DNA from: Demequina sp. | GTDB taxonomy: Bacteria; Actinomycetota; Actinomycetes; Actinomycetales; Demequinaceae | Direction: 5' to 3' | Assembly: GCF_016278775.1 (NCBI RefSeq) | Contig: NZ_JADQBF010000005.1 | Coordinates: forward strand, 1 to 43,016 | DNA: 43,016 bases | Shown: piece after piece, positions 1-8,720 of the stretch | How the letters are laid out: every line of letters begins with the position of its first letter | Position numbering within the stretch: the first letter of the stretch is position 1 | The notes under the pieces: generated by a model | What the model was told of the DNA's origin: nothing | Databases searched by the model: none | What the model saw: only the letters and a program-made list of their open reading frames with translations | Program-made: the position numbers and the translations under genes

Positions 1-438
1 GACCACGTTCATCACGACCGAGCTGGGATACACGGCGAGGCCGCCGGGCACGTAGAGCCCCACGCGGCTGACCGGGACCCAGCGCTGCGAGACTCGAGCG
101 CCCGGCGCGAGGTCCACGCTCACGGGCGGGGGGACGGTCGCTTCGTGGAAGGCGCGCACGCGCCTGATGGCCTCCTCAAGGCCCGCCCGTACGGCGGGGT
201 CCAGGGTGGTCAGGGCCGACTCGATGGCGGCCGGGTCGATACGCAGACTGTCCGGCGCGCCCCCGTCGAAGCGGTCGCCGTACTCCCGCAACGCCTGCTC
301 TCCCCTGGCCCGCACGTCGGCCAGGATCGGCAGGACGGTGGCGAGTGCGGCGTCGACATCAATCTCGGCGCGGGGGACGATGTCAAGAAGTTCACGTGCG
401 CTGAGTGCACGCCCGCGCAGGTCGGTGACGGAGAGCAT
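1..438 (-). CDS. hisD: Histidinol dehydrogenase, N-terminal 146 residues (runs off left edge)
   Basis: HisD oxidises L-histidinol to L-histidine in two NAD-dependent steps, the last reactions of histidine synthesis in the cytoplasm. Only the N-terminal third is present; the gene continues past the left edge. The visible N-terminus has the family opening D-L-R-G followed by L-S-x-x-E-L-L and V-P-R-A, then a long helical stretch and the typical W-V-P-V-S-R-V-G-L-Y-V-P-G-G segment near residues 123-136, which precedes the NAD/substrate region. The start is the ATG at 438, nine bases after the stop of the upstream membrane gene. No clear Shine-Dalgarno site lies in front of it, so reinitiation from the upstream gene is plausible (inference). 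The family call is firm. Confidence 0.95.
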   Translation of the reverse strand, partial: MLSVTDLRGRALSARELLDIVPRAEIDVDAALATVLPILADVRARGEQALREYGDRFDGGAPDSLRIDPAAIESALTTLDPAVRAGLEEAIRRVRAFHEATVPPPVSVDLAPGARVSQRWVPVSRVGLYVPGGLAVYPSSVVMNVV

Positions 439-447
439 AACGCCAGT

Positions 448-1533
448 CTAGGAGTCCGCGAGCGGGCGTCCATCCTCGTCGAAGTCGATCTGCTGGCTCG
501 AGCCGCCCTCTGCCCACGCGATGGTCGCTGCCACCTCGCCCGAGGCTGACCACAGTCGTACAGTGACCGTGCCGCCGACCGTCTGGTTGATGACCTGTGC
601 AGCGCTCGCGGTCAGCCGGTCCATCGCGCCGGGGCGGTCGAGAGGGCGGGCACGGCCGTCAATCAGCTCCACGCGCACGCCACGGGCACGAGCCGAACGG
701 GTCGCGGCCACGACCACCGGTGTCGTGAGCGACCGGGCGCGAACCGAGTCCTGCAGGTTCGCCTCGGCCAGCCCGTACTCGCGCCGATCTTGGTCGGTCA
801 TTACTGGTGACTGAATGATGCGGGTGAGCAACGGGGCGGCCTCCGCGGCCAACTCTTGAGTACGCGCCTCGCGCGTCTCGCGCTCCGCCTCGGTTGCCGC
901 GGCCGACGTGACGAGGCTCACCGATCTCGCGTTGAGTTCTTTGATCCGCGCAGACGCGCGGCGCAAACCACGCGCGAACAGGCTGCACACAAACAGCACC
1001 GCAGCGCTGGTTTGGAAGGCAAGCAGTTGGCCCACGAGTCCTCGCCCGGTGTCGAGCGCCCACACCGTCTGCACCAAGAGCATCATCCCGAACGACGTCC
1101 AGGCCAGGCCGACACGACCCCTGAGTGCCATCAGGAACAGAACCCACACGTTGCTGATGGCGTACCAGGCCTCGCGGCCCGGTTCGTCGGCAACAATCTG
1201 CCAGGCCACGAGCGCCACGGACGCCGGCACCGCGAACGACACGATCGCCGCGTCGCTCGCGGGCATCGGATCTCCCGAGGACCTCAGCATGAGCAGCGCG
1301 GGCCCAAGGAGTACCGCAAGCCCCGCGACTACCATCCACGGATTGGCGACCCGGTCGAGGGTGGTCAGCGCGAAAGTCGCGGTGCATGCGGCAAACAGGC
1401 CATACACAAGCCACGCGCTCACGCTGCCGATGCCGAGCAGCACCGAGACGTCAGACTCGGCGCCTCCCACGGGGGCACGTCCGCCCGGTGCCGCCGCACC
1501 CGTGCGTGGGCTCAACGATGCCGTCGCGCTCAT
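448..1533 (-). CDS. Multi-pass membrane protein with degenerate histidine-kinase-like C-terminus
   Basis: This protein has 361 residues. The first ~190 hold about five or six hydrophobic segments. A charged, Ala/Glu/Arg-rich helical linker follows (roughly 195-230), then a ~125-residue soluble domain. The linker-plus-domain layout matches the dimerisation and ATPase part of NarL-class sensor kinases. However, no phosphoacceptor His, N-box Asn or D-x-G-x-G is visible, so it is probably not a catalytic kinase. The start chosen is the ATG at 1533. It overlaps the upstream kinase-like gene as ATGA and has GGTGAGG five bases before it; an ATG at 1548 is a less supported alternative. Pairing with the upstream gene suggests a heteromeric membrane sensor (inference). 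No family name is recognised with certainty. Confidence 0.75.
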   Translation of the reverse strand: MSATASLSPRTGAAAPGGRAPVGGAESDVSVLLGIGSVSAWLVYGLFAACTATFALTTLDRVANPWMVVAGLAVLLGPALLMLRSSGDPMPASDAAIVSFAVPASVALVAWQIVADEPGREAWYAISNVWVLFLMALRGRVGLAWTSFGMMLLVQTVWALDTGRGLVGQLLAFQTSAAVLFVCSLFARGLRRASARIKELNARSVSLVTSAAATEAERETREARTQELAAEAAPLLTRIIQSPVMTDQDRREYGLAEANLQDSVRARSLTTPVVVAATRSARARGVRVELIDGRARPLDRPGAMDRLTASAAQVINQTVGGTVTVRLWSASGEVAATIAWAEGGSSQQIDFDEDGRPLADS

Positions 1534-2765
1534 GCGAACCTCACCCATCGAAGTGTCACTACCGTGCCGCGGCCTGGGCGCGAGTCAATGTGCGCGCTGC
1601 CGCCCGCCAGGGCCTGCATTCTTTCCATCACGCTCACCCGCAGTCCCATTTTCCGCTCGTTGACGGCACGCACGTCAAAGCCCACGCCGGAGTCCTCCAC
1701 CGCCACCTGAACCACGTCGTCGGCGATGGTCACGTTGACCACCCGCGTCACCAAGCGACCGTCCGGCGCGGCGTGCCGCAGGCTGTTGCGCACAGCCTCG
1801 GCGGTCGCTTCGGAAAGGGCCTCAACCACCTCGGCCGCTATGCGACCGGTGCCCCACTCGCGGTGCCAGAACTCCACAGTGCCCTCAACATCGGACGCTG
1901 CCGCCCGCAGCGCCGCCAACACATCTTCTGGTGAGTAGTCGACCGCCTGGCTGGAGCCCGATCCGATGGTGCGAATGCGCTCAAGCGCGGCCCGTGCCGC
2001 TCCCGTCACCTCGTCGGTCAGCGGGCTGGTGGCCGCGAGTCCAAGGGCCGTCATCACCTCGTCAAACACGATCGAGTTGATGCGGGCCTGTTCGCGACTA
2101 CGGGTGCGACTAGCGGCGTCTCGCGCCGCAAGCGCGCGTGTGTGTTGCTCCAACGCGTCCTGTTTGTCTCCGGCAGACACGAGTGCAAGCGCCGCGCCCG
2201 CCAACAGTCCGGAGAACAGCACGGACAGCACGCCGCTCAGGATGCCCTCAAGCCATGGCCCCTCCGTGGAGACGCGTTGCGTGACGGCGACGAGCGGCAA
2301 CTGAGCAAAGACGTACAGCCACACTCCCCAGTGGCGGTAGGCCGCTGCAGCAATAAGCACGGGGATTGCGTTCACGGCCTGGAGCCACGGGCCTGCGTCC
2401 ATTCGGTCCACAGTCATGAACGCCAGCCAGCTCGCGTGCACCACGAAGAATGCGATCGGGATCACTTTGGCGTACCCAGTGACTGCCCGGATGGGCATGA
2501 GGAAGGGCAACACGATTAGCAGCGCCGGCATGACTGCACCCACCGCGAACGCGACGATCGCGTACGCGGGCATGACCGCCTCGCTTTGGTCCAGGAGCTG
2601 ACCCACGCGCAAGCCCACGAACACCACGGCCGCGATGCCGATGGAGATGTAGAGCACGCGCTGGATGCGTTCGCGCGCCACATGGTTTCCCGTGACGGGT
2701 GGTGTGGTCACCGCGCCCGCGACGGTGCGCGCCTCACTCACCTTGGGTGGTGATGGTAACGACAT
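1530..2765 (-). CDS. Sensor histidine-kinase-like membrane ATPase lacking the phosphoacceptor His
   Basis: This 411-residue protein has about six membrane segments between residues 37 and 197, a helical linker (~200-262) and a C-terminal HATPase_c domain. The ATP-site motifs are intact: N-box Asn327 in a E-A-V-R-N-S-L-R-H-A context, G1 box Asp358-Ser-Gly-Val-Gly362, and the G2 region M-G-L-R with a final P-G-R-G-T near residue 397. In the dimerisation helix, where NarL/DesK-class kinases have H-D-E-V, the sequence is F-D-E-V (234-237). Autophosphorylation on His is therefore not expected there. The ATG at 2765 follows a good GGGAGG site. The next gene overlaps it by four bases, and no response regulator lies on either side within the window. 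It could be a pseudokinase or a phosphatase-type regulator (inference). Confidence 0.85.
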   Translation of the reverse strand: MSLPSPPKVSEARTVAGAVTTPPVTGNHVARERIQRVLYISIGIAAVVFVGLRVGQLLDQSEAVMPAYAIVAFAVGAVMPALLIVLPFLMPIRAVTGYAKVIPIAFFVVHASWLAFMTVDRMDAGPWLQAVNAIPVLIAAAAYRHWGVWLYVFAQLPLVAVTQRVSTEGPWLEGILSGVLSVLFSGLLAGAALALVSAGDKQDALEQHTRALAARDAASRTRSREQARINSIVFDEVMTALGLAATSPLTDEVTGAARAALERIRTIGSGSSQAVDYSPEDVLAALRAAASDVEGTVEFWHREWGTGRIAAEVVEALSEATAEAVRNSLRHAAPDGRLVTRVVNVTIADDVVQVAVEDSGVGFDVRAVNERKMGLRVSVMERMQALAGGSAHIDSRPGRGTVVTLRWVRFA

Positions 2766-2865
2766 CGCCGCCTCCCTCCCTCAGACGCTGCCGGTCTCAA
2801 CTTAGCGACAACTGGTCCTGCTCGCCGGGCGATGAAGTCGGCGTGTGTGACAACGCCAACAATCC

Positions 2866-2970
2866 CTAGCGATTCTTGTGCCGTCTCGACGGCACGGAGG
2901 CGCGCGGCACCACCGCAAGCAGCTCGCTGGTGGACAGTTCCTGACCGCGTAGATCGATGGGCCTCAACAC
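2866..2970 (-). pseudogene. Relic resembling the N-terminus of HisD
   Basis: Reading from a GTG at 2970, the first ~26 codons give L-R-P-I-D-L-R-G, then L-S-T-S-E-L-L and V-V-P-R-A. Aligned by eye without gaps to the true HisD start in this window, 14 of 25 residues are identical, including D-L-R-G, L-S, E-L-L and V-P-R-A. The similarity then stops and a TAG follows at 2868-2866. At DNA level the two stretches match at only about 55% of positions, so this is not a recent local copy. It may be an old or imported remnant, or a short leader peptide that resembles HisD by chance. Confidence 0.45.
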
Positions 2971-3020
2971 GCCCGTCAGGCGACCGGCGCCACGGGAACG
3001 CCGTGTGATGGCGCCGCCTC

Positions 3021-3066
3021 CCCCGCAAGAGTGATCGGACGTACCCCGCAAGAGTGACGGGACGTA
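3021..3066. repeat. Two-copy 23 bp tandem repeat
   Basis: Units at 3021-3043 and 3044-3066 match at 21 of 23 positions. Each reads ccccgcaagagtga followed by a variable pair and ggacgta. The copies are directly adjacent, 11 bases upstream of the operator-like palindrome of the next gene. Confidence 0.85.
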
Positions 3067-3076
3067 CGCCCCTCAT

Positions 3077-3099
3077 ACCTACGGTTGCGTAAGTTACGC
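3077..3099 (+). promoter_or_regulatory. Operator-like overlapping palindromes before the nitronate monooxygenase gene
   Basis: Positions 3077-3094 form a near-palindrome, ACCTACG-GTTG-CGTAAGT, with 6 of 7 arm positions paired. Positions 3087-3099 form GCGTAA-G-TTACGC, perfect apart from its central base. It ends 28 bases before the ATG at 3127, a place where a TetR-type repressor could act. From memory it resembles operators in front of lipid-metabolism genes in actinobacteria; this was not checked. Confidence 0.45.
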
Positions 3100-3126
3100 T
3101 TGCCGAAACGACGGGAGAGGCCCCCC

Positions 3127-4599
3127 ATGGCGACTCACATCGCAGCATCACCCCACGCTGGCCACACCGAAGGCCGGAGCCTACCGAGCATCATCCAAGG
3201 CGGCATGGGCGCCGCAGTGTCTTCGTGGCGCCTCGCTTCGCAAGTCGCACAGGCCGGACAACTGGGCGTCGTGTCAGGCATCGGCCTCGACATGGTGCTC
3301 GCGCGCAGGTTGCAGGATGGCGATAAGGGCGGGCACATGCGTCGCGCCCTCGCGGCCTTCCCCGTGCCCGAGATCGCCGAGCGCGCCCTCGAGGAGTACT
3401 TCCTGCCAGACGGTCGCGACGAGGCACAGCCCTACGCGGCCGTACCGAAACTGGTGATCGAGCAATCTCGCGAAGCCCAAGAGTTGGCGGTGCTAGGCAA
3501 CTTTGTCGAGGTCTGGCTCGCCAAGGAGGGCCACGACGGCTTGGTGGGCGTCAACTATCTCGAAAAGGTGCAGATGGCCACACCTACGGCGGCCTACGGC
3601 GCCATGCTCGCCGGGGTCGATTACGTGCTCATGGGCGCGGGCCTGCCACGCGAGATTCCTCACCTGCTTGACCAGCTTGCCGGGCACGCCACGGTGGCTT
3701 TCCCCGTCGACGTGGTGGGGGCCGAGCGGGGCAGCTACTCCGTCACGCTCGACCCTGTCGACCTCCTCGGGACCGCCTTGCCGCCACTCAAGCGGCCCCA
3801 CTTTCTCGCGATCGTGTCCGCCCACGTGCTCGCGGAATACCTCGCCCGCGACGACGCGATCCGTCCAGACGGCTTTGTGATCGAGGGCCCCTTGGCGGGC
3901 GGCCACAACGCACCCCCGCGCGGCAAAGCCGTCCTCGACGACGCTGGGGAACCCCAATTCGGTCCTCGCGACTACGCGGACCTCGCGAAGGTCGCCGCGA
4001 TTGGTATGCCGTTCTGGCTGGCGGGCACCTACGGCACACCGGAGGGCCTCGTCGCCGCCAAAGAGGCCGGGGCGGTCGGCGTGCAAGTGGGCACCCTCTT
4101 CGCCCTCAGCAACGACGCCAACTTCGAGCCGTCCATCCGCAAAGAGCTGGTGTCCCACGTGGCCGACGGAACACTGCGGGTCACCACCGACTTGCGGGCC
4201 TCCCCCACCGGATTCCCGTTCAAGGTGGCCGAGCTGGAGGGCTCCCTGTCCGAGCCGGAGGTAGTCGAGGCACGTCCGCGGCTGTGTGATCTGGGCTTCT
4301 TGGGAGTTCCATTCGTGAAGCCCAACGGCAAGGTGGACAACCGTTGCGCCGCAGAGCCGGAAAGGCCCTTTGCGCGCAAGGGAGGCAAACCGGAGGATGC
4401 GGCCGGACGGCTATGCCTGTGCAACGCCCTGATGGCCAACGTCGGCCTGGGGCAGACGCGCGCTACCGGCTACGTCGAGAAACCACTCATCACGCTCGGT
4501 GCTGACCTTGAGGGGCCGCGGCGACTCGCTGAGCGCCACCCCGGAGGATGGACCGCCCGCGAGGCTCTGGAGTGGTTACTCGCGCCCACTGACGGCTAG
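3127..4599 (+). CDS. FMN-dependent nitronate monooxygenase / PfaD-like oxidoreductase
   Basis: This 490-residue TIM-barrel flavoprotein belongs to the nitronate monooxygenase (2-nitropropane dioxygenase) superfamily. The opening I-I-Q-G-G-M-G (residues 22-28) is the FMN-proximal barrel start. G-P-L-A-G-G-H-N followed by A-P-P-R-G-K near residues 253-266 is the family's glycine/His signature. G-V-Q-V-G-T near 319-324 is the phosphate-binding strand. It is longer than the ~320-350-residue stand-alone enzymes; the extra C-terminal part contains a Cys-rich R-L-C-L-C-N segment, as in PfaD-like enoyl-reductase relatives. The ATG at 3127 has GGGAGAGG upstream; an earlier in-frame start at 3085 would run through the operator-like palindrome. 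The substrate is unknown. A role in acyl-chain metabolism is inference from the subfamily and operator. Confidence 0.85.
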   Translation: MATHIAASPHAGHTEGRSLPSIIQGGMGAAVSSWRLASQVAQAGQLGVVSGIGLDMVLARRLQDGDKGGHMRRALAAFPVPEIAERALEEYFLPDGRDEAQPYAAVPKLVIEQSREAQELAVLGNFVEVWLAKEGHDGLVGVNYLEKVQMATPTAAYGAMLAGVDYVLMGAGLPREIPHLLDQLAGHATVAFPVDVVGAERGSYSVTLDPVDLLGTALPPLKRPHFLAIVSAHVLAEYLARDDAIRPDGFVIEGPLAGGHNAPPRGKAVLDDAGEPQFGPRDYADLAKVAAIGMPFWLAGTYGTPEGLVAAKEAGAVGVQVGTLFALSNDANFEPSIRKELVSHVADGTLRVTTDLRASPTGFPFKVAELEGSLSEPEVVEARPRLCDLGFLGVPFVKPNGKVDNRCAAEPERPFARKGGKPEDAAGRLCLCNALMANVGLGQTRATGYVEKPLITLGADLEGPRRLAERHPGGWTAREALEWLLAPTDG

Positions 4600-4609
4600 C
4601 CAGCCAGGC

Positions 4610-4651
4610 GCGCGCGGTGGCCAGGATGGAGCGCGCGGTGGCCAGGACAAG
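4610..4651. repeat. Two-copy 21 bp tandem repeat
   Basis: The units at 4610-4630 and 4631-4651 share gcgcgcggtggccagga exactly and differ in the last few bases. The repeat lies between two convergent genes, directly after the stop of the nitronate monooxygenase. No stem-loop with a T-run accompanies it, so it is not an obvious terminator. Confidence 0.8.
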
Positions 4652-4660
4652 GCACGCGGA

Positions 4661-5047
4661 TCATTGCGCGGCGTCGGCGTCGAGGGGGCGCTTTCCGATC
4701 CAGCCCAGGTGAGTGTGCTGAAAGTCGTCGCTGTGCTTGAGTCCGTACCCGAGCGCCCGGTCGACGCCCACGTGGAAGGCCCACGAAGTCGCCACGATGA
4801 TCCACGCCTCCGCGCCTGTCGCCGCGAACACGGCCGCAGCCGCCACCGGGCCCACGTACGAATGCCCGGCGTTGTACACAGCCGCGCCGATGCGAGGCCC
4901 AGCCGTGTACCCGGCCGCCGACACGTCGAACGCCAGGAACAAAGCGAGCGGCCACCACCACGCCTGCCCGAAGCCGATCACGAGCGACGCCACCGAGGCG
5001 ACCGCAATGGCCGCACCCTCAAGTTTCTGCCACGCAATCACGGTCAT
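4661..5047 (-). CDS. DUF4260 family membrane protein
   Basis: A small protein (128 residues) with about four hydrophobic segments: two in the first 45 residues, then around 65-80 and 80-95. The C-terminal signature H-V-G-V-D-R-A-L-G-Y-G-L-K, followed by F-Q-H-T-H-L-G-W-I-G, is what I recall for DUF4260 proteins. It is predicted to sit in the cytoplasmic membrane; its function is unknown. It starts at the ATG at 5047 and converges on the nitronate monooxygenase gene. It is separated from dnaE, upstream on the same strand, by 130 bases. Confidence 0.85.
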   Translation of the reverse strand: MTVIAWQKLEGAAIAVASVASLVIGFGQAWWWPLALFLAFDVSAAGYTAGPRIGAAVYNAGHSYVGPVAAAAVFAATGAEAWIIVATSWAFHVGVDRALGYGLKHSDDFQHTHLGWIGKRPLDADAAQ

Positions 5048-5177
5048 GGCGCCACCCTAGCCCGCAGGCGTCTCGGGGGACCGCCCCACGGAAACCATGT
5101 TCGGCCGCACTGTCAGGGGTCACGGCGACCGTGGCGGCGCCGCACGCCGTTCGGGAGGTTCGGTGAGCCCGACCGCC

Positions 5178-8100
5178 CTACACGGCCAAGCAGCTGGGCC
5201 CCAGCGCCGCCTTCAGGTCGCCGTACAACGCCGACGACTTCTCCACCCTGAACTCGTCGCCCAGGCGCATCGTCAGCGGCTTGTCGCCGCCCGTCAGCAC
5301 CATCCGCACCTCCACTGTGCCTGGATGCGACCGCAGAATCCCCTTGACCTCTTCCACCAACGGAGGGGTCACGCGTGCCGCTGGCACGTTGATCGCCACG
5401 GGCGCGTTGTCCACCACGTTGACGTTGGGGATCCGCAACTCGATCGCGGAGAACTGCAGGCCACCGTCTCCACGCTCCCGTGAACGGGCCTTGATGGTGA
5501 CCACCGAGTCCTCCGTGAGGTCTCGCGCGTAGGTGTCGTAGGTCTTGGCGAAGAACGACACCTCGACCTCGCCCGTCATGTCCTCGAGCACCACGATCGC
5601 GTAGGCGTTGCCCGAGCGCGCGATGCGCCTATCCACGCGCGTGATGAGCCCGGCGAATACGACCTGCTCGCCCTCGCCGAGCCCATGCGCCGGTGTGGCA
5701 TTGAGGATCTGGTGCGTCGCCTCGGCGCGCAGCACGTGGTCCAGCCCCGACAGCGGGTGATCGGACACATACAGCCCGAGCATCTCCCGCTCCAGGTTGA
5801 GCAGCGTCTTCTTGTCCCACTCCGGCACGTTGGGCACCTCGACGCGCACGCCGCCGCTGAGGTCGGCATCGCCGCCGAACAAGTCGAACTGCCCCGTCGC
5901 CTCTTGGCGCTTGAGGCCCACCACGGAATCGACTGCCTGTTCGTGGATGAGCGACAGCGACTTGCGGGTGTGGCCCAGCGAGTCGAACGCGCCCGCCTTG
6001 ACGAGCGAGTCGATGGTGCGCTTGTTGCACACCGATGCGGTCACCTTGTCCAAGAAGTCGGGGAACGACGCGTAGTCACCCTTCGCCTCTCGCGCCTTCT
6101 GGATTTCCGCAACCACGTTGGCGCCGACGTTGCGCACCGCGGTGAGCCCAAAGCGGATGTCTTTGCCAACGGCCGAGAAGTTCGCCTTGGAGTCGTTGAC
6201 GTCAGGCGCCAACACCGTGATGCCCATGCGGCGGCATTCGGCCAGGTAGAGCGCCATCTTGTCTTTGTCGGTGCCCACAGAGGTGAGCAGCGCCGCCATG
6301 AACTCCGTCGGATAGTGCGCCTTGAGGTACGCCGTCCAGAACGACAGCACCCCGTACGCGGCCGTGTGCGCCTTGTTAAACGCGTAGTCGGCGAACGGAA
6401 CCAGCGTGTCCCAGAGCTTCTTGATTGCCTCATCGGAGAAGCCGTTCGCCTTCATGCCAGCGTTAAACGGCTCGAACTCCTTGGCGAGCACCTCTGGCTT
6501 CTTCTTGCCCATGGCCCGCCGCAGCAGGTCTGCCGCTCCGAGCGTGTAGCCGGCCACGATCTGCGCAATGCGCTGCACTTGCTCTTGGTAGACGATCAGC
6601 CCGTACGTGACCTCCAGCACCTCGCGCAGCGGCGCCTCGAGTTCCGGGTGGATGTAGTCGACCTGCTGGCGGCCGTTCTTGCGCTCGGCGTAGGCGGTGT
6701 GCGAGTTCGCGCCCATGGGGCCCGGCCGGTACAACGCCAACACTGCGGAGATGTCTTCGAACGTGTCCGGCTTCATCTGGCGCAGCAGCGAGCGCATGGC
6801 CACGCCGTCGAGCTGGAACACGCCCAGGGTGTCGCCACGCCCCAGCAGGTCGAAGGTGGCTTGGTCCTCGAGCGCCAGATCCTCCAGCACCAAAGGCGGC
6901 TTGCCGTTGTCGACGATGTTGTCCAATGCGTCGTCGAGGATCGTCAGGTTGCGCAGCCCCAAGAAGTCCATCTTCACCAGGCCGAGGCCCTCGCACGTGG
7001 GGTAGTCGAACTGGGTGATGATGACGCCGTCTTGCTCGCGCCTCATGATCGGGATGATGTCGATGAGCGGCTCGGACGACATGATGACGCCAGCCGCGTG
7101 CACTCCCCACTGACGCTTGAGGCCCTCGAGCCCTAGCGCCATGTCGACTACTTCGCGCGCCTCAGGGTCGGCCTCGACCGCCGCCCTGAAATCGCCGCCC
7201 TCGTTGTAACGATCGTTCTTCTCGTCGAACACGGCGGCGAGCGACAGGTCGCGGCCCTGCTGGGGGTCGGGGTACGCCTTGGTGAGCAACTCGCCCAGCG
7301 CGTACGGCTTGCCCAGCACCCGCGCGGAGTCCTTGAGCGCCTGCTTGGCCTTGATGGTGCCGTACGTGACGATCTGGGCGACCTTGTCTTCGCCGTACTT
7401 GTCCGTCACGTAGCGGATCACTTCGCCGCGACGACGCTCGTCAAAGTCGATATCGAAGTCGGGCTTGGACTCGCGTTCGGGGTTGAGGAACCGCTCGAAG
7501 TACAGCTGGTGTTGGATCGGGTCCAGGTCGGTGATCCGCATGGCGTAGGCGGCCATGGAGCCGGCACCCGAGCCGCGGCCAGGCCCCACGCGAATCTTGT
7601 GGTCCTTGGCCCACTTCACAAAGTCGGCGACTACCAGGAAGTACCCCGGGTAGCCCTTGTCCGCGATCACATCGATCTCGAAGTTGGCGCGGTCCTGCAC
7701 GTGTGCAGGAATCTGCTCGCCAAAGCGGTCGTGTAGCCCGCGCTGCACCTCCTTGACAAACCAGGAGTGCTCGTCCTCCCCCGGCGGGACGGCGTAGCGC
7801 GGCATGTAGTCGGCGGACGTATTGAACGCCACCTCACACTGTTCGGCGATCGCGAGGGTGTTGGTGAGCGCCTCCGGGTGCCTGTCGCCCCACAGGTCCC
7901 ACATCTCTTCCGCCGTCTTGACGTAGTAGCCGTCGCCGTTGAACGCGAAGCGCTTGCCGCCCTGGTCGTAGGTGGGCTCGTCGAGGGTCGCACCCGACTG
8001 GATGCACAGCAACGCCTCGTGTGTCTTGGCGTCGTCCTTTGACGAGTAGTGAAGGTCATTGGTGGCCACCAGCGGCGCGCCCAGGTCCTTCGACAGACGC

Positions 8101-8720
8101 ACCAGGTCCTCGTAGACCCGCTTCTCAATCTCGAGATCGTGGTCCATCAACTCCACGTAGTAGTTCTCGCGACCGAAGATCTCTTGGAACTCCCCCGCCG
8201 CCTTGAGCGCCTCGTCGTACTGGCCAAGGCGCAGCCTGGTCTGCACCTCCCCGGACGGGCAGCCAGTGGTAGCGATGATGCCCTTCGCATAGCGCTGCAG
8301 CAGGTCGCGGTCCATGCGGGCCTTGTAGAAGTGCCCCTCGAGAGACGCGTAGGACGCGAGCCGGAACAGGTTGTGCATTCCCGCCGTGTCCTTGGCCCAC
8401 ATGGTGGCGTGCGTGTAAGCGCCACCCGAGCTGACGTCGTCCCCCGCCTGACCCTCCTGCCCCCACTTGACGCGAGAACGGTCCGAGCGGGCTGTGCCTG
8501 GGGTGAGGTATGCCTCAAGCCCGATGATGGGCTTGACTCCGGCCTCCGTGGCCTTCGACCAGAACTCGTAGGCGCCGAACAGGTAGCCGTGGTCGGTGGT
8601 CGCAATGGCCTTCTGGCCCAGCTCGTTGGCGCGCTGCATGAGGTCGGTGATGCGGGCGGCGCCGTCCAACATCGAGTACTCCGTGTGCACATGGAGGTGG
8701 ACGAAGTCGCGCGACGGCAT
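5178..8720 (-). CDS. dnaE: DNA polymerase III alpha subunit (replicative polymerase)
   Basis: This is the catalytic subunit of the chromosomal replicase, 1180 residues, normal for actinobacterial DnaE1. The N-terminal PHP domain begins with H-L-H-V-H-T-E-Y-S (residues 8-16) and later T-D-H-G, the metal-binding signature of actinobacterial PHP proofreading nucleases. The palm has the catalytic aspartates in P-D-F-D-I-D-F-D-E (about 419-427) and a further Asp in K-M-D-F-L-G near 582. Finger and thumb regions follow, then a helix-hairpin-helix region (~830-880) and an OB-fold (~1000-1080). The ATG at 8720 gives the expected short leader before the first PHP histidine. It diverges from hrpA across 227 bases containing an inverted-repeat element. 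No damage or frameshift is seen. Confidence 0.98.
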   Translation of the reverse strand: MPSRDFVHLHVHTEYSMLDGAARITDLMQRANELGQKAIATTDHGYLFGAYEFWSKATEAGVKPIIGLEAYLTPGTARSDRSRVKWGQEGQAGDDVSSGGAYTHATMWAKDTAGMHNLFRLASYASLEGHFYKARMDRDLLQRYAKGIIATTGCPSGEVQTRLRLGQYDEALKAAGEFQEIFGRENYYVELMDHDLEIEKRVYEDLVRLSKDLGAPLVATNDLHYSSKDDAKTHEALLCIQSGATLDEPTYDQGGKRFAFNGDGYYVKTAEEMWDLWGDRHPEALTNTLAIAEQCEVAFNTSADYMPRYAVPPGEDEHSWFVKEVQRGLHDRFGEQIPAHVQDRANFEIDVIADKGYPGYFLVVADFVKWAKDHKIRVGPGRGSGAGSMAAYAMRITDLDPIQHQLYFERFLNPERESKPDFDIDFDERRRGEVIRYVTDKYGEDKVAQIVTYGTIKAKQALKDSARVLGKPYALGELLTKAYPDPQQGRDLSLAAVFDEKNDRYNEGGDFRAAVEADPEAREVVDMALGLEGLKRQWGVHAAGVIMSSEPLIDIIPIMRREQDGVIITQFDYPTCEGLGLVKMDFLGLRNLTILDDALDNIVDNGKPPLVLEDLALEDQATFDLLGRGDTLGVFQLDGVAMRSLLRQMKPDTFEDISAVLALYRPGPMGANSHTAYAERKNGRQQVDYIHPELEAPLREVLEVTYGLIVYQEQVQRIAQIVAGYTLGAADLLRRAMGKKKPEVLAKEFEPFNAGMKANGFSDEAIKKLWDTLVPFADYAFNKAHTAAYGVLSFWTAYLKAHYPTEFMAALLTSVGTDKDKMALYLAECRRMGITVLAPDVNDSKANFSAVGKDIRFGLTAVRNVGANVVAEIQKAREAKGDYASFPDFLDKVTASVCNKRTIDSLVKAGAFDSLGHTRKSLSLIHEQAVDSVVGLKRQEATGQFDLFGGDADLSGGVRVEVPNVPEWDKKTLLNLEREMLGLYVSDHPLSGLDHVLRAEATHQILNATPAHGLGEGEQVVFAGLITRVDRRIARSGNAYAIVVLEDMTGEVEVSFFAKTYDTYARDLTEDSVVTIKARSRERGDGGLQFSAIELRIPNVNVVDNAPVAINVPAARVTPPLVEEVKGILRSHPGTVEVRMVLTGGDKPLTMRLGDEFRVEKSSALYGDLKAALGPSCLAV

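Follow-up and report, generated by a model that had tools for sequence, protein, structure and literature searches.

Gene organization of the locus

The window, i.e. the whole stretch of DNA analysed here (43,016 nucleotides), is contig C63 of a single Demequina sp. genome assembly (2.52 Mb, 94% complete). Near its start lie two open frames, both intact and overlapping by 19 bases, which encode membrane proteins termed here protein A and protein B. Along the minus strand the gene order is dnaE, a DUF4260 gene, a nitronate monooxygenase-like gene (itself on the plus strand), A, B and hisD. Two further Demequinaceae genomes, G033 (contig C11) and G046, carry homologous genes at the same place. 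The features are listed below.

1-438, minus strand: hisD, truncated by the contig end; flank common to the window, G033 and G046
448-1548, minus strand: protein B, 366 aa; layout as in A, C-terminal domain kinase-like without motifs, without His
1530-2765, minus strand: protein A, 411 aa; helical membrane part, long helix and DHp-like hairpin with F234, HATPase_c with N, G1 and G2
2064-2066, minus strand: codon TTT of F234 in A (approximately 2062-2066; exact position from 2765 - 3 x 233)
2766-3126, no strand: gap upstream of A, the place of the decayed regulator gene in G033; regulator remnant not found
3127-4599, plus strand: nitronate monooxygenase-like gene, flanked by A and the DUF4260 gene; not in the G033 locus order
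4661-5047, minus strand: DUF4260 gene; dnaE-side neighbourhood common to the window and G033
5178-8720, minus strand: dnaE; flank common to the window, G033 and G046

Protein A

The motif region of protein A reads INSIVFDEVMTAL, and F234-D235-E236-V237 stands where an autophosphorylating kinase of the NarL/DesK class is expected to carry its phosphoacceptor His. The elements of the ATP site are present, i.e. the alignment shows an N-box (EAVRNSLRHA), G1 (DSGVGF) and G2 (GRGT), and HATPase_c of Pfam matches above its cut-off (E 1.1e-10). The first-pass annotation had read these motifs and the F-D-E-V at 234-237 correctly, but the H-D-E-V that it gave as the norm does not hold, as the relatives mostly read VHDD[VI]MSVL. 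A non-His phosphoacceptor residue combined with retained ATP motifs is the sequence pattern of a DivL-like pseudo-histidine kinase, and A shows it. As far as can be judged from the sequence, phosphorylation of A at the usual place is impossible.

In the 77 aligned A rows the phosphoacceptor column holds His 74 times; the exceptions are Phe in the window, Arg in the syntenic copy of G033 and a gap in a distant locus (L130), where the kinase half is out of frame. Phe at column 234 was found in the window genome only. The first-pass annotation had raised the conservation of both the H-to-F change and the pairing of A with B; the pairing is conserved across the family, the change is confined to one genome. 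This comes close to what that annotation had named as speaking against itself: the relatives have the His, at this very column, and usually a linked response regulator. A shifted His was not found in A either, as none lies close to 234 and the nearest in sequence, H208, is 26 residues upstream. The codon of F234 is TTT and the His codon of the relatives is CAC (70 rows) or CAT (4 rows), so that two or three base changes are required and a one-base sequencing error is unlikely, though a wrong consensus could occur in one assembly.

At E 0.01 none of 56 A rows matched HisKA_3 of Pfam, including those that have the His, and its absence therefore says nothing about window A alone. HATPase_c_2 is found in 52 of the 56 rows, and A matches it at its cut-off. 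The phosphatase motif of the NarL/DesK class is expected to carry Gln; that position is occupied by Ser in most canonical A rows and by Thr in window A, and the motif thus gives no hint of a phosphatase role. The structural model of A (pLDDT 90.4) consists of a helical membrane part, a long helix running into a hairpin, and a catalytic domain. A Foldseek search with this model returned DesK-DesR as the best match and DivL as the second, with DesK-DesR the most frequent among the best matches.

Protein B

The overlapping partner has the layout of A and no kinase motifs, as had been noted at first pass. It contains no His; any Pfam matches were at E 0.09 or weaker, and NCBIfam yielded nothing up to E 1. 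Its counterpart B2, from the canonical copy in the same genome (see below), has no NCBIfam match either. Thirty columns are at least 90% conserved among the 55 rows of the B family; none of them is His or Asn, hence there is no conserved N-box Asn, and window B retains 27 of the 30. A single Pfam match to DUF6286 (one of 55 B rows, E 0.004) and three sequence-profile matches to solved structures (E 0.07-0.14) were taken as chance.

The model of B (pLDDT 90.9) follows the plan of A with a smaller C-terminal domain, and Foldseek returned no match for it at E 0.001. Over residues about 271-359 the model aligns to the catalytic domains of many kinases, but the Z scores of 6.2-7.7 are of a size common by chance; the top VIA-align row, over residues 26-213 with Z 10.1, is the membrane protein ImcA, a match that may mean little as helical bundles are compared. 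A profile comparison of A with B gave 96.4% over 325 columns at 15% identity, to which the included membrane helices may contribute. B is likely a degenerate relative of kinase A.

A and B are joined in one open frame in three of 20 distant loci, namely L130 (genome G261), L132 (G105) and L140 (G384), the first of which holds only the C-terminal half of A. Such fusions suggest that A and B act as one unit. The search of the order showed an 855-aa frame in three genomes of one genus, of which G105 is the one read. Relatives of B occur in 45 of 47 Demequinaceae genomes; at the level of the order, 78 of the 396 genomes sampled have one. B is, by these comparisons, an undescribed family, with no Pfam name in the rows tested.

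The regulator-A-B operon in Demequinaceae

We examined 57 systems in 45 Demequinaceae genomes (58 A rows, two of which are halves of the G046 gene). The usual operon of the family is response regulator-A-B, and the canonical regulators consist of a receiver and a LuxR-type HTH. An R2-like regulator adjoins A in 46 of the 57 systems, one of the 46 being decayed (G033), and a regulator is also present in 19 of 20 more distant loci. No linked regulator is seen in 11 systems, namely those of the window and G046 and nine pairs that stand beside hydrogenase genes. The window genome itself has an intact canonical copy on contig C114, with a regulator of 214 aa, a kinase A2 that reads VHDDIMSVL and a B2 of 343 aa. 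The idea of an ATP-dependent pseudokinase pair, put forward at first pass, fits the evidence from the window; a separate class of His-less sensors is not supported, considering that the relatives have the His in 74 of 77 rows and the regulator in 46 of 57 systems.

In 30 of the 33 canonical loci with long flanks, exonuclease III is encoded upstream at a distance of a few genes. Roadblock/LC7 (12 of 33) and ATP_bind_1 (16 of 33) genes are also found near canonical loci (L061, L062 and others), downstream and on the opposite strand, in what we take to resemble a conservon-type cluster. No signal for the canonical system follows from these three kinds of neighbours.

Nine genomes (loci L071-L079) have a second, His-bearing A-B pair without a regulator. 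It stands beside a hydrogenase beta-subunit-like gene in all nine loci, accompanied by a gamma-like gene in six and a delta-like gene in five, and all nine genomes also hold the canonical operon. These pairs are possibly a hydrogen- or redox-linked sensor that uses an unlinked regulator. In locus L081 (genome G011, 50% complete) A and B of a canonical operon are each split in two overlapping frames, through sequencing error or decay.

Search for a response regulator

Searches for receiver and LuxR-HTH domains in the whole genome gave no match on contig C63, and a search with 36 regulators of relatives gave no match at E 1 or better within 2700-5200 (the best in the window had E 0.11). The first-pass statement that no response regulator is adjacent was thus borne out: the pair lacks the linked regulator by which a two-component system is recognised and, with F234 in addition, it fits the evidence to say that this is no functioning two-component system of the usual design. 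The orphan LuxR-type regulator that had been proposed as a search target does exist in the genome, in the form of a NarL-type regulator on contig C84 (L149, 3636-4253) that has no adjacent kinase and lies beside a sigma-factor-like gene. It is an ordinary NarL-type protein that matches the canonical regulator weakly (38 bits), and we did not accept it as the cognate regulator. Another candidate, on contig C58, was rejected since its own kinase adjoins it.

The pair at dnaE-hisD in three genomes

Three systems adjoin hisD, i.e. the window, the C11 copy of G033 and G046, so the copy at dnaE-hisD is found in three of the 45 system-bearing genomes (12 of the 57 loci have only 1.5-kb flanks). Neither hisD nor dnaE was seen in any other examined locus, with about 1.5 kb of flank in those 12 loci and with the canonical contig of G044 ending just after B. 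The dnaE genes of the window and G033 are 80.5% identical.

In G033 the order is dnaE, DUF4260, decayed regulator, A (with Arg), B and hisD. In the decayed regulator Asp55 and Lys104 are still in place in the alignment, but E11A and T82S have occurred and the HTH and the C-terminus are changed; a search for GerE at E 0.001 was negative, and the receiver scored below its cut-off. Its GC3 is 0.68 as compared to 0.78 in the C114 regulator, and its dN/dS against a canonical regulator is 0.22. The spot of this decayed gene is occupied in the window by the nitronate monooxygenase-like gene, which may have arrived as the regulator was lost.

In G046 protein A still has the His (HDRV). Its gene follows dnaE and is cut between contigs, B precedes hisD on another contig, and no regulator lies between dnaE and A. 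This genome (89% complete) gave no further match to A or B. A lone regulator on a third contig (L158, 1635-2276) is 67% identical to that of C114, with receiver and GerE above their cut-offs; an exonuclease III fragment lies upstream, three tRNA genes lie downstream, and A or B is absent from the remaining 850 bases of the contig. As exonuclease III also marks the canonical loci, the regulator seems to have been kept at the canonical place, and the one kinase pair found in G046 is at dnaE-hisD. This suggests that a dnaE-hisD pair can serve a canonical-type regulator in trans, provided that the two indeed work together. Of the three genomes, the window genome and G033 have a canonical kinase in addition and lack the His in the dnaE-hisD copy, and G046, in which no canonical kinase was found, retains it; three cases are no proof.

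Phylogeny and sequence constraint

The tree of A unites the window, G033:C11 and G046 (100/100) beside the canonical copies of G044 and G045 (100/99), and the tree of B agrees (95/90, then 99/96). Within the trio both trees pair the window with G046 (85/27 for A, 99/90 for B) on long branches, and a grouping of the window with G033 is compatible with the data (AU p 0.447 for A and 0.269 for B). The trees as drawn imply two losses of the His; one loss is compatible with the AU tests. The A branch has a length of 0.65 in the window as compared to 0.41 in G033:C11.

Twenty-seven positions of A are at least 95% conserved in the 53 other rows. Window A keeps 23 of these, the lost ones being H234F, P310A, R372K and L373M, and the A protein of G033:C11 keeps 26, the His being the one lost. 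In a leave-one-out comparison the other A rows lose 0-4 such positions, never the His in the 0.95 lists shown. Nei-Gojobori dN/dS between the window and G033:C11 is 0.29 for A and 0.42 for B; between the canonical copies in these two genomes it is 0.33 for A, 0.38 for B and 0.10 for the regulator. Against the canonical A of G044 the values are 0.45 for window A and 0.30 for the A of G033:C11, so window A is somewhat less constrained. These dN/dS estimates are rough, since synonymous sites are near saturation (pS 0.62-0.65), and as both one and two losses of the His are possible the constraint is not datable to the time after the loss. GC3 of A and B is similar to that of A2 and B2. The figures argue against a long neutral drift, not against a recent decay.

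Possible function of the window pair

As we read the alignments and trees, A and B of the window descend from a regulator-A-B system from which the regulator and the His were lost, and they show much the same constraint as the canonical copies. A copy of this system lies at dnaE-hisD; in that lineage the regulator decayed or was deleted, and A in the window lost its phosphoacceptor with the ATP site and the dimerisation helices retained. The pair would then be a non-phosphorylating membrane sensor that, as its motifs suggest, binds ATP and changes shape without passing on a phosphate. The parts kept (membrane part, dimerisation helices, ATP site, B) and the parts lost (His, regulator) suit such a sensor. 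Its effect would be exerted in trans on the output of the C114 regulator-kinase-partner system, perhaps through mixed dimers or by holding the C114 regulator; as the closest kin of the pair in the cell, the C114 system is its likeliest target. Modulation of the intact C114 paralogue in trans by a pseudokinase-partner pair is the reading that we tentatively put forward, and we rate it a little short of an even chance. It draws on the presence of the intact paralogue, the conserved positions, dN/dS, GC3, the split system of G046 and the precedents of DivL, ChrS and RetS. On the other side, the two His-less copies carry different residues, Phe and Arg, as would be expected under relaxed selection no less than for a chosen residue, window A has lost three further near-invariant residues and has a longer branch than G033:C11, the constraint estimate is rough, the truncated ChrS pseudokinase formed no heterodimer (PMC9491836), and there is one assembly.

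The main rival is a redundant copy in decay, which lost its regulator and then the His because the cell can do with the intact paralogue, and in which A and B look intact as the decay is recent. The stepwise loss is visible (regulator decayed in G033, absent in the window), the His is gone just where a canonical kinase is present, its two replacements are unrelated residues, and the copy is restricted to the few genomes named above. However, A and B are free of stops and frameshifts, the ATP motifs and most near-invariant residues are retained, and dN/dS and GC3 are similar to those of the canonical copies. We hold this explanation to be possible, if somewhat doubtful. A more elaborate form of the modulation in trans makes A and B an obligate two-subunit sensor kinase, with B as a motif-less kinase-like subunit; the dnaE-hisD version would have lost phosphorylation altogether and would, gated at the membrane and binding ATP, modulate the active two-subunit kinase of the same cell. 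As a whole, this model is rather doubtful.

It is improbable that the pair has a phosphate-free output of its own which is unrelated to the C114 system, for instance the ATP-dependent holding of a protein partner. Apart from HATPase_c_2, the ATP domain of A weakly matches the anti-sigma factors RsbW and SpoIIAB, but these matches are far under the NCBIfam cut-offs (24 bits vs 145 and 135) and are shared with canonical members, and no candidate target gene was found next to the pair. Very improbable is a continued phosphorylation of A on another residue or another protein, with signalling to an unlinked response regulator, for which the orphan regulator on C84 and a cognate gene missing from a 94% complete genome could be invoked, but H208 is remote from 234, B has no His and the C84 protein only weakly resembles the canonical one.

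To return to the modulation in trans, the working three-gene form, the form with a decayed regulator and the split form with a lone regulator all occur in Demequinaceae, so the change from a phosphorelay to a possible non-catalytic sensor is traceable within one family. Should B prove to be a genuine second subunit, there would be heteromers among the sensor kinases now regarded as homodimers; a pair that is just decaying would be an ordinary case.

Comparison with known systems

Natural kinases that lack the phosphoacceptor His and have an ATP site form a small class, with DivL as the usual example. His-less kinases as such are already known; the DesK-like form with Phe or Arg and a partner B, and B itself, are absent from the literature found. 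No paper on the regulator-A-B operon, on B or on Demequina kinases came up in this literature, with subscription journals mostly outside its scope. The NarL/DesK class, represented by DesK, resembles the window family in that it provides the top Foldseek matches of A and in that the canonical regulator is a receiver with a LuxR-type HTH. The family differs from it by A rows without a HisKA_3 match and by the constant second membrane protein B, and the window in addition by the missing His and regulator.

DivL of Caulobacter regulates in vivo without kinase activity (PMC4211667). Like A it has a non-His phosphoacceptor residue (Tyr, Ala in one species), and it keeps the N, G1, F and G2 boxes (PMC4211667). 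Its PAS domains, its conserved Tyr and its weak ATP binding (PMC4211667) set it apart from A, which has a membrane part, the partner B and Phe or Arg in place of the His. RetS of Pseudomonas is a sensor kinase without autokinase activity that controls another one, GacS (PMC5992135). RetS has a retained H-box, a degenerate ATP domain and receiver domains (PMC5992135), and window A shows the opposite pattern.

ChrS and HrrS of Corynebacterium glutamicum are, like the window pair and its paralogue, paralogous actinobacterial sensor kinases, and they show crosstalk (PMC9491836). A catalytically dead ChrS raises the signalling of HrrS to ChrA; the native kinases heterodimerise in two-hybrid assays, and the truncated pseudokinase showed no heterodimer (PMC9491836). 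The ChrS pseudokinase arose from a laboratory frameshift in the ATP domain with the His kept (PMC9491836), whereas in window A the His is lost and the ATP domain is kept, and this in a natural genome.
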